From Thiemannella venezuelensis (GTDB taxonomy: Bacteria; Actinomycetota; Actinomycetes; Streptosporangiales; Streptosporangiaceae): 64,000 bases of DNA. The stretch lies in NCBI RefSeq assembly GCF_014203605.1, contig NZ_JACHJJ010000021.1:1-64000 (forward strand), read 5' to 3'. Shown one piece after another: positions 56,461 to 63,105 of the stretch. How positions within the stretch are numbered: the stretch's first letter is position 1; every line of letters begins with the position of its first letter. Below the pieces are notes generated by a model, which did not search any database, had not been told where the DNA came from, and saw only the letters and a program-made list of their open reading frames with translations. Made by a program: the position numbers and the translations under genes.

Positions 56461-57864
56461 ATGGGACGCATCGCTCGGGTCTCGGCGATGGACGGCCTGC
56501 GGCTGGGGGCGACGGTCCTGGCCCCCGTGGTGGCCCAGGGCGTCATCGTGCGGCGGCCCCGCATGACCGCCCTGGCGCAGGCCCTGGACACCGACCGCCG
56601 GGCCGTACGGCTGCTGCACCGAATGCGCGCCAAGTACGGCGGCGGGCCGCTGCTGGTGCCGATCCCGCTCCGGCCGATGCTCCTCGTCCTGGACCCCGAG
56701 GACGTACAGCGGATCCTGGCCGGCACCCCCGAGCCGTTCGCCGCCGACAACCGGGAGAAGCGGAGCGCGCTCGGACACTTCGAGCCGGACGCGGTGCTGG
56801 TCTCCCACGGGCGGCTGCGCGAGGACCGGCGGCGCTTCAACGAGGCCGTGCTGGAGACCGGGCAGGACGCGCACCGGTTCTCGGGAGCCTTCCAGGCCGT
56901 GATCCGGCAGGAGCTCGGCCCGCCGGCGCGGGCGCCGGAGCTGACCTGGGAGCGGTTCGCCCCCGCCTGGTGGCGCGCCGTCCGGCGGATCGTCCTGGGC
57001 GACGGCGCCCGCGACGACACCGTGCTCACCGACCTGCTCAACCGGTTGCGGGCCGACGCCAACTGGGCCTACGCCCGCCCGAGGCGGCGCGGGACGTACC
57101 GGCGGTTCACCTCCCGACTCCGCGCCCATCTCGACCGGGCCGAACCGGGCAGCCTGGCCGCCCTCGCGGCCCGCACCCCGGCCTCGGACCGGACCCGCCC
57201 GGAGGGCCAGGTGCCGCACTGGCTGTTCGCCTTCGACGCCGCCGGGATCGCTGTCTTCCGCGCCCTGGCCCTGCTGGCGACCCACCCCGAGCACGAGGAG
57301 CGCGCCCGCGCCGAATCGGCCGGAGCCCCCGGCGGGGGACGGGACGGTGCCGGAGGCGGAACGGGCACCGCGGCCGCGCGGCCGTTCCTGGCCGCCTGCG
57401 TCCAGGAGTCGCTCCGGCTCTGGCCGACCACCCTGGCGATCCTGCGCGACAGCACGACCGCCACCCACTGGGGCGGCGGGACGGTGCCGGGGCAGACCCC
57501 CTTCCTGGTCTTCAGCGCGTTCGTCAACCGGGACGAGGAGACCGGCCCGTCGGCCAACCGGTTCACCCCGCGCATCTGGCTGGACGGCGCCGCGGACGAC
57601 CGCTGGTCGATCGTCCCCTTCAGCCGCGGCCCTGCGCAGTGCGCGGGACGGAACCTGGTCCTGGACGTCACCACCGGAGCCCTCGCCGCGCTGCTCGCGC
57701 AGGGCCGCTTCCGGGTGGAGCCGCCCACGGCGCTCGCGCCCGGCCGGGACCTGCCCTACTCACTGGACCACTTCACGCTGCGGTTCGCCGTCCGGCAGCT
57801 CGAAGCGGTCGAGGGGCTCGGTGGCCGGTCCCTGCAGGACCGAGCCGTCCACGCCGAACCGTGA
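56461..57864 (+). CDS. Cytochrome P450 (second)
   Basis: The 467-residue P450 has ExxR as ESLRLWP, a PERF-like NRFTPRIW and the heme loop FSRGPAQCAGRNL with the cysteine ligand. The I-helix region is FAFDAAGIAVFRAL, without the usual Thr pair. The N-terminus has one moderately hydrophobic stretch but no clear membrane anchor. Its 3' end overlaps the convergent FAD-Rieske gene by 105 bp. Divergent from the hydrolase; a shared pathway is possible but unproven. Confidence 0.9.
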   Translation: MGRIARVSAMDGLRLGATVLAPVVAQGVIVRRPRMTALAQALDTDRRAVRLLHRMRAKYGGGPLLVPIPLRPMLLVLDPEDVQRILAGTPEPFAADNREKRSALGHFEPDAVLVSHGRLREDRRRFNEAVLETGQDAHRFSGAFQAVIRQELGPPARAPELTWERFAPAWWRAVRRIVLGDGARDDTVLTDLLNRLRADANWAYARPRRRGTYRRFTSRLRAHLDRAEPGSLAALAARTPASDRTRPEGQVPHWLFAFDAAGIAVFRALALLATHPEHEERARAESAGAPGGGRDGAGGGTGTAAARPFLAACVQESLRLWPTTLAILRDSTTATHWGGGTVPGQTPFLVFSAFVNRDEETGPSANRFTPRIWLDGAADDRWSIVPFSRGPAQCAGRNLVLDVTTGALAALLAQGRFRVEPPTALAPGRDLPYSLDHFTLRFAVRQLEAVEGLGGRSLQDRAVHAEP

Positions 57865-59298
57865 GCCGTGGCAGGGGCACTCCCAGGTGCGCTCGGCGTC
57901 GTTGAAGCCCACCACGCACCCCAGGTGGGTGCAGACCGCCGAGACGGCGTGCACCCGGCCGTCCTCGTCGCGGTAGACCGCGCAGCGCTTCCCGCCGACC
58001 TTGAGGACCGCGCCCTGGCCGCGGCCGAGCCGCTCCACCTCGTCGGCCGGTCCCGCGCCCAGCCGGTCGGCGACGAAGTGGGCCGCGACGGCGGCCTGCA
58101 TCTTCAGGGCCGGCCCCGCCTCCCGGAGCGGGTGCATCCGCCGCGGATCGTACAGCCGGGCCCAGGGCCGCTCCCGCCCCGCGATCAGTTCGGCGATCAG
58201 CAGGCCCGCCATGACGCCGTTGCTCATGCCCCAGCCGCCGAAGCCGGTGGCGACGTAGGCGTGCCGGGCCCCGGGGTGCAGCGGGCCGATGAAGGGCAGG
58301 CCGTCGGTGGTGTCGTTGTCCTGCGCCGCCCAGCGGTAGGCGACGCCGGTCGCGCCGAACCGCTCGGCGGTCCACGCGGCCAGCCGGTCGAAGCGCTCGC
58401 ACACCCCGCCGGAGCCGGGCTTGAACTGCTCGCCGGTGACGATCAGCAGCCGCCGGCCCTCGCCGTACGGCGCCGTGCGGACCGAGCGGGTGTTCTGCTC
58501 GGTGGTGATGAACATGCCGCCGGGGTCGCGCCCTGCGGGGATGTCCGCGGCGACCACCAGCTCGCGCCGGGGCTCCATCCGGGTGAACAACAGGGCCCGG
58601 TCGAAGACCGGATAGTGGGTCGCGACGACGACGTCCCGGGCCGTGACCGCCGGCCCGCCGGAGGTCCGCAGCCGGCACGGCTCGCCCTCGTCGAGTGCCA
58701 CGACGCGGCTGTCCTCGAAGACGAGCGCGCCGCGGGAGGTCATCGCCTCGGCGAGGCCGAGGAGGTACTTGCGCGGGTGGAACTGGGCCTGGTCGTCCAC
58801 CCTGACCGCCCCGGCGACCGGGAAGGGCAGCGGCGAGCCGGTCGTGAACGAGGCCGGCAGCCCCGCCTCCGCCGCGGCCTGCGCCTCGGCGCGGAGCTCC
58901 TCCACCGACTCGGCCGACTCGGCGTAGGTGAACGCGGGGACCCGCTCCAGCTCGCAGTCGATCCCGAGCTCGGCGGCGGTCAGCGCCACGTGCTCGACCG
59001 CCTCCCGCTGGGAGCGGGCGTAGAGCCGGGCCGCCTCGGTCCCGGCTGATTTGGCGAGCTTCGCGTAGATCATGGTGTGCTGGGCCGAGAGCTTGGCCGT
59101 GGTGTGCCCGGTGACCCCCGCCGCCACCCGTCCGGCCTCCAGCACCGCCACCGACCGTCCCGCCCTGGTGAGCTCCCACGCCGCGCTCAGCCCGGCGATC
59201 CCGGCGCCGACCACGGCCACGTCGACTTCGATGTCCCCGGTGAGCTGCGGGTACGGCCGGCCCGCCGCGGAGTCGATCCAGAAAGAGTGCGTCGTCAT
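57760..59298 (-). CDS. FAD-dependent oxidoreductase with C-terminal Rieske domain
   Basis: The 512-residue protein has an N-terminal FAD-binding DAO-type domain (VDVAVVGAGIAGLSAAWELTRAGRSVAVLEAGRV; FGGWGMSNGVMAGLLIAELI) and a Rieske [2Fe-2S] domain near 440-490 with CTHLGCVV and CPCHGSRF. This two-domain arrangement is common in actinomycetes, and the substrate is unknown. It converges on the P450 gene, overlapping by 105 bp. Confidence 0.93.
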   Translation of the reverse strand: MTTHSFWIDSAAGRPYPQLTGDIEVDVAVVGAGIAGLSAAWELTRAGRSVAVLEAGRVAAGVTGHTTAKLSAQHTMIYAKLAKSAGTEAARLYARSQREAVEHVALTAAELGIDCELERVPAFTYAESAESVEELRAEAQAAAEAGLPASFTTGSPLPFPVAGAVRVDDQAQFHPRKYLLGLAEAMTSRGALVFEDSRVVALDEGEPCRLRTSGGPAVTARDVVVATHYPVFDRALLFTRMEPRRELVVAADIPAGRDPGGMFITTEQNTRSVRTAPYGEGRRLLIVTGEQFKPGSGGVCERFDRLAAWTAERFGATGVAYRWAAQDNDTTDGLPFIGPLHPGARHAYVATGFGGWGMSNGVMAGLLIAELIAGRERPWARLYDPRRMHPLREAGPALKMQAAVAAHFVADRLGAGPADEVERLGRGQGAVLKVGGKRCAVYRDEDGRVHAVSAVCTHLGCVVGFNDAERTWECPCHGSRFGVDGSVLQGPATEPLDRFELPDGEPQREVVQ

Positions 59299-59480
59299 GG
59301 ACTGCCCCTGCCCGGACGGCGCGGCATCTCACCCGGCGGCCCCCGCCGGGGCGGCCGGGAGACCGGCGGGCGGACGCCGGCCCGGCCGGTGCCGGGGCGG
59401 GCCGGCGGATAACCGGTTGTCCGGCGGGCGGGCCGCCTGTTCTACTCGTGATCAGCAGAACCGCCGGCAGAGGAGGCGAA

Positions 59481-59591
59481 ATGAGGCACGCGTTCATGTC
59501 CACCCGCACCATCCCCGTCACGCACGCAAAGGACATGACGCTTGTCGACCTCATCGACCTCATCGACCTCGGGGAGGGCGGCCTCCGGTAG
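59481..59591 (+). CDS. 36-residue peptide upstream of an ABC exporter, RiPP precursor or leader peptide candidate
   Basis: ATG 59481 follows AGAGGAGGCGAA, one of the strongest ribosome sites in the window. The peptide starts MRHAFMSTRTIPVTHAKDM and ends TLVDLIDLIDLGEGGLR, where the DLIDLIDL run comes from tandem copies of a 9-bp unit. The exporter's TTG start (59542) lies inside this ORF in another frame. Small peptides before two half-ABC exporters occur in ram/lanthipeptide-like clusters, but no modification enzyme is present and there is no Cys. An attenuator-type leader is the alternative. Confidence 0.5.
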   Translation: MRHAFMSTRTIPVTHAKDMTLVDLIDLIDLGEGGLR

Positions 59592-61263
59592 GCGCGTTCT
59601 CCTCTCCTTCCTGCCGGGGCCCGGCCCCGCCGCGCTCCTGGCCCTGGCCGTCGCGGCCGCGACGGCCCTGCCGCTCGCGGCTCCGCCGTTCACCCGCCGG
59701 TTCGTCGACGACGCGGCGGCCGGGGCGAGCCTCGACCGGCTCACCCCCGTCGCGCTGGGCTACCTCGGCCTGGCCGTCGCCGGGCAGGCCGCCCGGATGC
59801 TCACCGCCTGGCTGGCCGGCAGGGCGGCCTGGGACGGGAGCAACCGGCTGCGCGAACGGCTGGCCGGGCACACGCTCGGCCTGGACATGGCCTTCCACGG
59901 CGGGCACACGCCCGGAGAGATGATCGAGCGGGTGGACGGCGACGTGGCCGCCCTCACCGACTTCGCCGTGGCCTTCCTGCTGGACGTGGTGGGCGGCGCG
60001 CTGCTGCTGTGCGGGGCGGTCGCGGTGGTGTTCACCGTCGACCCGGGCATCGGCGGGGTGCTGCTGGCCTACTGCGCGGTGGTCGGCCTCGGCATGATCT
60101 GCGCGCAGCGTCTCGCCGTACCCTCGGCCACACGGGCGCGGGCGGCCTCCGCCGCGCTGTTCGGCTACCTGGAGGAGCGGCTGGCCGGGGCGGAGGACCT
60201 GCGCGCCAACGGCGCGGGCGAGCACGCCGTCCGCCGCTTCTACCAGGCCTCCGCCGCGCTGTGGCGGGCCGAAAGGCGCGGGGACGCGGTGGGCAGCGGC
60301 ATCCTGGCCGCCACGGGAGCGGCGTTCGCGGCGGGCACGGTGCTCATCCCGGCCCTGTCCGGCGCGCTCGGCGCGGGCACCGCGGTCCTGCTGCTGCAGT
60401 ACATGCTCATGGTCCGCACGCCGTTCGAGCGGCTGATCGACCAGCTCCGCCGCTACCAGGCGGCCCTCGCCGGCCTGGAGCGCATCGGTGACCTGCTGGG
60501 CGAGCGGTCCGCGCTGCCGGTGCCCGCCGCGGCCCGGAGCCTGCCCGCGACCGGACCGCTCGCCCTGGAGCTGGACGCCGTCGGCTTCGCCTACGGCGGT
60601 GAGCACGGCGGCGAACCGGTGCTCAGGGACATCACGCTCAGCCTGGCGCCGGGCGAGACGCTCGGCCTGGTGGGCCCGAGCGGGAGCGGGAAGACCACCA
60701 TCGCCCGCCTGGTGGCGCGCCTGTACGATCCGGCGTCCGGCGCCGTCCGGGTCGGCGGACTGGACCTGCGCGAGGCGGATCCCGCGTCGCTCCGCAGCAG
60801 GATCGGCGTGGTCAACCAGGACGTGCGGCTGTTCGACGCCGACGTCCGGGACAACCTCACCCTGTTCCGGCCGTATCCCGGCGACGACCGCCTGAGGGAG
60901 GTCCTGGCCGAGGTCGGGCTCGCCGGCTGGGACCTCGACGCCCGGCTCGGCACCGTCTCGGCGGGGGAGGCGCAGTTGCTGGCCTTCGCCCGGGTCCTCC
61001 TGGCCGACCCCGGGCTCGTGGTGCTCGACGAGGCCGCCGGCCGGCTCGACCCGGCCACCGAACGCCGCGTCGACCGCAGCGTCGCCCGGCTGCTGTCCGG
61101 CAGGACCGGCGTGCTCATCGCCCACCGGCTCGCCTCGCTGTCCCGCGTGGACCGGATCGCCGTCGTCTCCGGCGGCGAGATCGTCGAGTACGGCAGGCGG
61201 CGGGACCTCCTCGCCGACCCGGCCGGCCGGTTCGCGCGGATGCTCGCGGAGGCGCGCCGGTGA
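59542..61263 (+). CDS. Heterodimeric ABC exporter, subunit 1 (TMD-NBD)
   Basis: The 573-residue half-exporter has about six membrane helices (residues ~20-300) and an ATPase with Walker A GPSGSGKTT, Walker B LVVLDEA (catalytic Glu present) and H-loop IAHR. Its signature is degenerate (VSAGEAQ instead of LSGGQ). TTG 59542 after AAAGGA is the only plausible start, overlapping the peptide ORF. It is coupled to subunit 2 by GTGA. The substrate is unknown; a peptide is suggested by context. Confidence 0.88.
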   Translation: MSTSSTSSTSGRAASGRRVLLSFLPGPGPAALLALAVAAATALPLAAPPFTRRFVDDAAAGASLDRLTPVALGYLGLAVAGQAARMLTAWLAGRAAWDGSNRLRERLAGHTLGLDMAFHGGHTPGEMIERVDGDVAALTDFAVAFLLDVVGGALLLCGAVAVVFTVDPGIGGVLLAYCAVVGLGMICAQRLAVPSATRARAASAALFGYLEERLAGAEDLRANGAGEHAVRRFYQASAALWRAERRGDAVGSGILAATGAAFAAGTVLIPALSGALGAGTAVLLLQYMLMVRTPFERLIDQLRRYQAALAGLERIGDLLGERSALPVPAAARSLPATGPLALELDAVGFAYGGEHGGEPVLRDITLSLAPGETLGLVGPSGSGKTTIARLVARLYDPASGAVRVGGLDLREADPASLRSRIGVVNQDVRLFDADVRDNLTLFRPYPGDDRLREVLAEVGLAGWDLDARLGTVSAGEAQLLAFARVLLADPGLVVLDEAAGRLDPATERRVDRSVARLLSGRTGVLIAHRLASLSRVDRIAVVSGGEIVEYGRRRDLLADPAGRFARMLAEARR

Positions 61264-62996
61264 AGCCCGTCACCAGGGCGGCCATCGCGCTGGCCCGCTT
61301 CGACCTGCGCCGCTACCTCGTTGGCGGCCTGCTCTGGCTGCCGGTCAGCGTCCTGCCGCTCGGCGGCGGCCTGATCCTGCAGCAGGTGTTCGACCACCTC
61401 GCCGCCCACCGGGTGCCGCTGCTGCTGTGCGCGGCCTTCGTCGGGGTGGAGCTGGTCCGCGGCCTGACGACCGTCGTCGCCTGGACCTACGGCGACTACT
61501 GGTGGAGCGCGGCGGCGACCCTGCTCCGGGCCAACGTGCTGCGCTCGGTCCTGATCGGCCGGGGGCGGGTGCCGTACTCCTCCGGCGAGGCGCTGGCCCG
61601 GCTCCGCGACGACGTGAGCGAGGTGGTGGGGTTCGTGGACGAGTCCGTTCCGCTGGCCGGGGCCGCGCTCTTCAGCACCGCGGCGCTGGCGGTCCTGGCG
61701 TCCGTGGACCCGGTCGTCACACTGGTCCTGGTGCTGCCGACGATCGCGATCGGCGTGCTGAGCAGGCTGGTGAACCGGCTGATCGGGCGGTTGCACCGGC
61801 GGGCCGGCGCGCTGGGCGCGGCCGTCGCCGGCCACCTCGGAGAGGTCTTCGGCGGCATACTGACGATCAAGACCGCGGGAGCGGAGGAGGCGGTGCTGGA
61901 GCGGCTGCGCCGGCACAACCGCCTGCGCCGCGACGCGGCGGTGAAGGACCGGCTCGCGACCGACCTGCTGGGCGCCGCGACCGGTGCCACCGTCGAGATC
62001 AGCATCGGCCTGGTCCTGCTGCTGTCCGCCCCGGCCATGCGCCGGGGCGACTTCACGGTGGGCGATCTGGCGCTGTTCACCTCCTACGCCGGCTGGCTCA
62101 CCGCGCTGCCGAGGACCGTCGGCGCGATCCTGGCGCGGATGCCCCAGGCGGGCGTCTCCGTCGAGCGGCTCACCCGGATGACGGGGCCGGGCGAGGATCC
62201 GGCCCGCGACACCGGCGTCTGGTTCCACCGGGAGTACCCCGCCGCGGCCGGACCGGCCCACGGAGATCCGCTGGAGGTGCTGCAGGCGCGGGGACTCACC
62301 GCCGGGCACGGTCTGCACGGAGTGGACCTGGAGATCAGGCGGGGATCGTTCACGGTGGTCACCGGCGCGGTCGGCGCCGGCAAGACCACGTTGCTGCGGG
62401 CCCTGCTCGGGCTGGAGCCGCTGGTGGCCGGGACGATCCTCTGGAACGGCGGGCGGGTGGCCGACCCCGGCGGGTTCATGGTGCCCGGCCGGGTCGCCTA
62501 CGCCGGGCAGGTGCCGCGGCTGTTCTCCGCCACCCTCCGCGAGAACCTGTTGCTCGGCCGGTCCGGCGACCGGCTGGAGCGGGCGGTGGGGCTGGCGGCG
62601 TTCGACCTCGACCTGGCCGGGATGCCCGAGGGTCTGGACACCGTCGTCGGCCCCCGCGGGGCGCGGCTCTCCGGCGGCCAGGCGCAGCGGGTGGCCGCCG
62701 CGCGGGCGCTGGTCCGCTCGCCGGACCTGCTCGTGGTGGACGACGTGTCCTCGGCCCTGGACGTGGAGACGGAGCGGCGGCTGTGGGAGCGGATCACCGG
62801 CGCCTGCACGCTGCTGGTCGTCTCCCACCGGCCGTCCGTGCTGGCCCGGGCCGACCAGGTCGTCGTCCTCGACCGGGGCCGGGTGGCCGGCCGGGGAACG
62901 CTGGACGAGCTCCTGGAGACCTGCCCCGAGATGCGGCGGTTGTGGTCGCTCGGTCCGCCGGTCGCGCCGGCGCCGGAGCGTCCGGCCGATGCATGA
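61260..62996 (+). CDS. Heterodimeric ABC exporter, subunit 2 (TMD-NBD)
   Basis: The 578-residue half-exporter has six membrane helices and an ATPase with Walker A GAVGAGKTT, a canonical signature LSGGQAQRVAAARALV and H-loop VSHR. Walker B ends in LLVVDDVSSAL, with Asp in place of the catalytic Glu. Combined with subunit 1 this gives one complete and one degenerate ATP site, the normal asymmetry of heterodimeric exporters. GTG 61260 overlaps the previous stop. Confidence 0.92.
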   Translation: MKPVTRAAIALARFDLRRYLVGGLLWLPVSVLPLGGGLILQQVFDHLAAHRVPLLLCAAFVGVELVRGLTTVVAWTYGDYWWSAAATLLRANVLRSVLIGRGRVPYSSGEALARLRDDVSEVVGFVDESVPLAGAALFSTAALAVLASVDPVVTLVLVLPTIAIGVLSRLVNRLIGRLHRRAGALGAAVAGHLGEVFGGILTIKTAGAEEAVLERLRRHNRLRRDAAVKDRLATDLLGAATGATVEISIGLVLLLSAPAMRRGDFTVGDLALFTSYAGWLTALPRTVGAILARMPQAGVSVERLTRMTGPGEDPARDTGVWFHREYPAAAGPAHGDPLEVLQARGLTAGHGLHGVDLEIRRGSFTVVTGAVGAGKTTLLRALLGLEPLVAGTILWNGGRVADPGGFMVPGRVAYAGQVPRLFSATLRENLLLGRSGDRLERAVGLAAFDLDLAGMPEGLDTVVGPRGARLSGGQAQRVAAARALVRSPDLLVVDDVSSALDVETERRLWERITGACTLLVVSHRPSVLARADQVVVLDRGRVAGRGTLDELLETCPEMRRLWSLGPPVAPAPERPADA

Positions 62997-63000
62997 ACCG

Positions 63001-63029
63001 GTGTTCCCGGAGTGGCCCTCCGGGAACAC
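63001..63029 (+). terminator. Rho-independent-type terminator of the exporter operon
   Basis: GTGTTCCCGGAG (63001-63012) and CTCCGGGAACAC (63018-63029) form a perfect 12-bp stem with a 5-nt loop, 5 nt after the exporter stop, followed by TGTTGCTCAT. Confidence 0.88.
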
Positions 63030-63105
63030 TGTTGCTCATATGTGATTGATTTCCCGTCTATAAGAGCAATACTAAACACATCACCACAACATCGGATCGC
63101 TCGGC

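Follow-up and report, generated by a model that had tools for sequence, protein, structure and literature searches.

The 36-codon open reading frame at positions 59481-59591 (+ strand) of the window, by which we mean the whole 64,000-nucleotide stretch of DNA analysed here, is very probably a built-in RNA switch and not the gene for a secreted peptide. We consider it highly likely that this upstream open reading frame (uORF) is a cis-acting leader that serves as a ribosome-mediated translational attenuator of a tetracycline-type drug exporter, the peptide itself not being the product. The initial annotation had reported a 36-residue peptide gene with a strong ribosome-binding site (RBS), a DLIDLIDL stretch followed by GEGGLR, and two half-exporters downstream, all of which are present in the sequence. 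The uORF starts at ATG 59481, 5 nt after the RBS AGAGGAGG, ends with TAG 59589-59591 and encodes MRHAFMSTRTIPVTHAKDMTLVDLIDLIDLGEGGLR.

The first exporter gene, ABC1 (59542-61263, +; 573 aa), starts inside the uORF in another frame, as had been proposed. Its start codon, TTG 59542, is preceded at a distance of 8 nt by the Shine-Dalgarno (SD) sequence AAAGGA (59528-59533, +). A start further upstream in a single frame is excluded, since TGA 59536-59538 closes the exporter frame; the same closing stop recurs near +55 in the majority of the 17 tabulated relatives in which the leader adjoins the exporter. The refuting condition set in the initial annotation, exporter homologs that read through the region in a single frame, is thus not borne out. 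ABC1 contains the Pfam domains ABC_membrane and ABC_tran, with Walker A GPSGSGKTT, a degenerate signature (VSAGE) and a catalytic Walker B (LVVLDE). It overlaps by 4 nt with ABC2 (61260-62996, +; 578 aa), which has Walker A GAVGAGKTT, a canonical LSGGQ and a degenerate Walker B (LLVVDD). With VSAGE and LDEA in ABC1 and LSGGQ and VDDV in ABC2, the two halves form an asymmetric pair, and ABC2 lies downstream of ABC1 in nearly every inspected ortholog locus. The NCBIfam tet_ABC_46 models match the exporter halves only far below cut-off, and searches of the exporter with PADLOC and against the PDB returned nothing beyond the ABC fold. A perfect 14-bp hairpin follows the operon (62999-63031, +; -26.4 kcal/mol); it resembles a terminator without a U tract and received no classical terminator score. 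The region directly upstream (56461-59298) encodes a cytochrome P450 (+) and a divergent FAD-dependent oxidoreductase with a Rieske domain (-), with no obvious link to the exporter.

An alignment of 59 leaders shows an 11-bp helix between uORF codons 4-7 and the SD region of the main gene. The 5' arm (59490-59501, +) consists of GCGU (59490-59493), a bulged U and CAUGUCC (59495-59501), with the anti-SD triplet UCC in codon 7. The 3' arm (59531-59541, +), GGACAUG-A-CGC, ends right before the TTG and holds the SD core GGA, for which relatives have GGAC or GGGC. A conserved structure with one arm inside the uORF thus hides the SD of the main gene. Pairing was found in 93.0% of the helix cells in the 59 loci, as compared to 86.3 +/- 0.6% in shuffles, and 38 cells carried double changes versus 10.7 in shuffles; neither value was reached in any of 500 shuffles. 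In slid registers, pairing amounted to just 27-48%. At one position of the helix, 38 sequences have A-U, 12 have G-C and 9 have G-U, with zero breaks. The covariation, of the types A-U/G-C/G-U and U-A/G-U, derives from a few clades and not from dozens of independent events. A 7-bp core of the helix was recovered independently by RNAalifold. From the uORF start onward, the RNA folds more stably than shuffles, both in the window (z -2.17; 3/200) and in relatives (z -1.6 to -2.4). When 33 nt of upstream leader are included, the stability of the window RNA equals that of the shuffles (z 0.09), which shows that competing folds exist. No Rfam 15 family matched the leader up to E=1.

The covarying pairs alter the encoded residues (FMS/DMT, FGS/DSK and VS/DTT, with Met replaced by Val or Gly, and Met by Thr or Ser), and the constraint is therefore on the RNA. 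The peptide motif A-F-M-S ... D-M-T-L is mostly a shadow of the 11-bp helix. The sole residue held at the amino-acid level is Arg2, which is encoded by several different codons, while the central codons, located in the loop, show neither a third-position excess nor amino-acid constraint. The DLIDLIDL stretch, singled out in the initial annotation, carries no weight: it is a three-copy 9-base repeat (tcgacctca; TCGACCTCA) at 59542-59571 in the overlap of uORF and exporter, which yields DLIDLIDL or STSSTSSTS, depending on the frame. Three copies are peculiar to the genome of the window: relatives have none, one or two of the 9-base units, and at this site the closest three have LADLADLG, GLIDIG and GLITIET. 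DLIDLIDL and GEGGLR are the out-of-frame shadow of the first exporter codons and of this repeat.

These patterns bear on the suggestion that the peptide is a secreted signal, a RiPP or ram-type precursor or a bacteriocin exported by ABC1/ABC2, which we regard as very improbable. The layout of a small ORF before an exporter agrees with such a function, and the exporter halves score with peptide exporter models, though among many others and far below cut-off. Against it, the peptide has no match in Pfam or NCBIfam, and its loop codons lack variation of the protein type. The leader is kept before the exporter in relatives, a point that the initial annotation had proposed to check, but the C-terminal half of the peptide, where a core peptide would be expected to be conserved, differs among them and is dictated by the codons of the downstream gene. 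In G470 (L090), a relative with the exporter, the loop carries a +1 shift, which leaves the hairpin and the TTG start intact and places the second half of the peptide in another frame. At this locus, the genes beside the uORF (P450, FAD/Rieske oxidoreductase and ABC halves) are not RiPP synthetases. The same leader is also present before cytosolic ribosome-protection GTPases, which export nothing.

The largely dispensable peptide sequence would also be compatible with a chance ORF that lies untranslated over an element acting solely as an RNA hairpin. This is equally hard to credit, given that a strong RBS and a start codon are retained in 59/59 leader loci, that Arg2 is kept through changing codons, and that even frames shifted by indels remain open beyond the main start. 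Searches with the sequence pattern and the covariance model place the element next to ribosomal protection protein (RPP) or exporter genes, and its recurrence there is far above chance.

The association with RPP genes emerged from a peptide search, which matched MRAAFMSTQAVTATYSKDMTL... in an unrelated genome (G047), overlapping the start of a TetM/OtrA-like GTPase. Another match (G028, E 0.06) was dropped, as it lies inside an unrelated coding region and contains a stop. A back-translated DNA pattern recovered 48 loci from one-per-species genomes, about a dozen of which fell in unrelated organisms or frames by chance; together with loci collected earlier, this yielded 36 distinct actinobacterial leaders, each of which abuts an RPP-type start (36/36), e.g., LNLGILAHVDAGKTSLTERLL. 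As a check on circularity, 394 genomes of the class were searched for RPPs by protein alone, irrespective of leaders. In all 30 RPP loci inspected from this sample, a uORF overlaps the RPP start out of frame, in most cases beginning 64 nt ahead of it, and nearly all of these uORFs are recognisably the leader of the window, the most divergent being that of L141. The covariance model identified the element in 30 of 296 genomes, in exactly one copy each, adjoining only RPPs (28) or the ABC1/ABC2 exporter (2).

The RPP that owns the leader in relatives is OtrA-like and falls below the NCBIfam cut-offs, so that it is not a certified member: the best models for the L033 protein, Otr(A) and tet_protect, scored 780 and 726 bits against cut-offs of 900 and 775 bits. 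Since the leader partners with OtrA-like RPPs, tetracyclines are the first guess for the substrate of the exporter, which may be a tetracycline-like compound or another ribosome-targeting drug. In two records, Nocardia aurea and Nonomuraea lactucae (L024 and L058), near-identical leaders are followed by an RPP-like frame that is lost after LNLGILAHVNAG, probably a broken RPP; L058 also carries ABC1, and the Nocardia record may be misassigned.

The exporter is present in 32 of the 297 genomes of the family to which the window belongs. The gene order is RPP-ABC1-ABC2 in 13 of the 32, with the leader located before the RPP in every one of the 12 checkable cases, and the leader abuts the exporter directly in 18, including the genome of the window. 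In 16 of the 17 tabulated direct loci, the exporter starts at +61 to +64, which is the place of the RPP starts. Decaying RPP remnants in four genomes indicate that the exporter apparently inherited the switch through deletion of the RPP. In G508, about 30 codons of the RPP follow the leader and are joined to the RPP tail across an internal deletion, and in G440 the leader precedes a stub of some 48 RPP codons that runs into a stop. In G465 and G538, an in-frame ...DAGKT... remnant of the RPP is fused to the N-terminus of the ABC protein. The ABC start of G440 is distant from the helix, and the coupling must therefore differ in that genome.

In the lineage of the window, the RPP was apparently deleted and the leader left behind, with the exporter start now at the position of the RPP start; its genome has no close RPP, only generic translation GTPases. 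The tree suggests several RPP losses, with four changes by parsimony, although the data do not reject a single clade (p-AU 0.147). One genome with the leader before the exporter (G285) encodes a more distant RPP elsewhere (C44:162277-164157; 54% identical), which is unmatched by the RNA model, and a second type of RPP without the element thus exists.

A candidate promoter of the WblC/WhiB7 type (59408-59446, +) is located upstream of the uORF. It consists of GATAAC (59408-59413), CGG, the -35 element TTGTCC (59417-59422), an 18-bp spacer and the -10 element TCTACT (59441-59446), and was recognised with the pattern GAAAWY, 3 bp, TKGMNN (-35), 16-19 bp, TANNNT (-10). It agrees with the Streptomyces coelicolor WblC consensus (PMC7157823) at 10 of 13 positions, departing at three, with a weak -10. 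Scores of at least 10/13 were obtained for 51 of the 59 homologous leaders versus 4.5% of shuffles, and nearly all of these promoters have the 18-bp spacing, with the -10 element about 32-43 nt before the uORF. In S. coelicolor, tetM belongs to the WblC regulon and is activated by WblC; no leader for this gene was found described in the main text of that study (PMC7157823). The promoter match suggests that the leader of the window may be under WblC control.

Taken together, a short uORF with its own strong RBS is conserved upstream of a resistance-type gene whose SD is hidden in a conserved helix. In the mechanism that we propose, the WblC/WhiB7-type promoter, presumably induced by translation stress, would start transcription. 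As long as codons 4-7 pair with the SD region, the uORF would be translated and the exporter would be off, and ribosomes finishing the uORF would also traverse the exporter start. If a translation inhibitor slowed ribosomes within the first ~8 codons, or arrested them there, the 5' arm would be held open and the GGA freed, and the exporter would then be translated. By the argument from the ribosome footprint, productive stalls are those at about codons 1-8. The peptide would be a by-product, its conserved residues being encoded by the helix, except for Arg2. The switch belongs to OtrA/TetM-type RPP genes, often as part of an RPP-ABC1-ABC2 operon.

Simple translational coupling, in which the uORF merely delivers ribosomes to the exporter and opens the helix as it is read, with no sensing of a drug, is an unlikely but more serious alternative than those discussed above. 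It would account for the overlapping frames, the strong RBS of the uORF and the lack of amino-acid constraint in the loop. However, ribosomes that read to the uORF stop cross the exporter start and terminate 47 nt past it, the helix is maintained by compensatory change, and the element is restricted to ribosome-drug resistance type genes and neighbouring exporters, with stress-type promoters. The reading as an attenuator, in which the helix may open in response to a drug, is preferred, and the translational leader that the initial annotation listed among its options is strongly supported.

We lean towards the broader view that this is an undescribed but widespread actinobacterial attenuator, a generic sensor of slowed early elongation in which the uORF codons serve as anti-SD and only Met-Arg is kept as protein, and that stepwise deletion of the RPP gene, its original owner, handed the whole switch over to a drug exporter, possibly several times. 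No description of the leader was found in the open-access literature, a source that may miss older work on the otrA promoter. What had been suspected to be a peptide product is here read as a regulatory RNA switch that seems to accompany OtrA-like tetracycline-protection genes throughout Actinobacteria, many Streptomyces among them. For an ABC exporter that is otherwise anonymous, the leader gives a prediction of the drug class, and it offers a compact, putatively inducible element. The preserved intermediates show a resistance switch inherited by a different resistance mechanism after loss of the original gene. The locus also calls for caution, in that a small ORF preceding an exporter in a high-GC genome can be an attenuator and not a RiPP precursor.

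In erm attenuators of the ermC/ErmCL type, a uORF with its own RBS precedes the main gene, the SD of which is located in a hairpin that involves the uORF and is relieved by ribosomes stalled on early codons. The leader of the window shares the uORF with its own RBS, the hidden SD and the expected relief by early-codon stalling. Unlike the erm leaders, it has a single hairpin inside the uORF, with coding codons as the anti-SD arm; its uORF crosses the start of the main gene in another frame, and nothing points to a specific arrest peptide. The window shares its leader and promoter with OtrA-like RPP genes, but in contrast to Otr(A)/Tet(M)-type loci they drive an ABC exporter here. With two half-exporters and one degenerate ATP site, ABC1/ABC2 resembles heterodimeric type IV ABC exporters such as TM287/288, TmrAB and BmrCD. 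In Bacillus subtilis, the BmrB leader ORF likewise precedes a heterodimeric multidrug ABC exporter, BmrCD, and controls it in response to translation inhibitors (PMC4191407). The BmrB mechanism is transcription attenuation, based on alternative stem-loops and a terminator (PMC4191407), whereas no terminator was found between the uORF and the exporter in the window, where the two frames overlap and the sole conserved element sequesters the SD.
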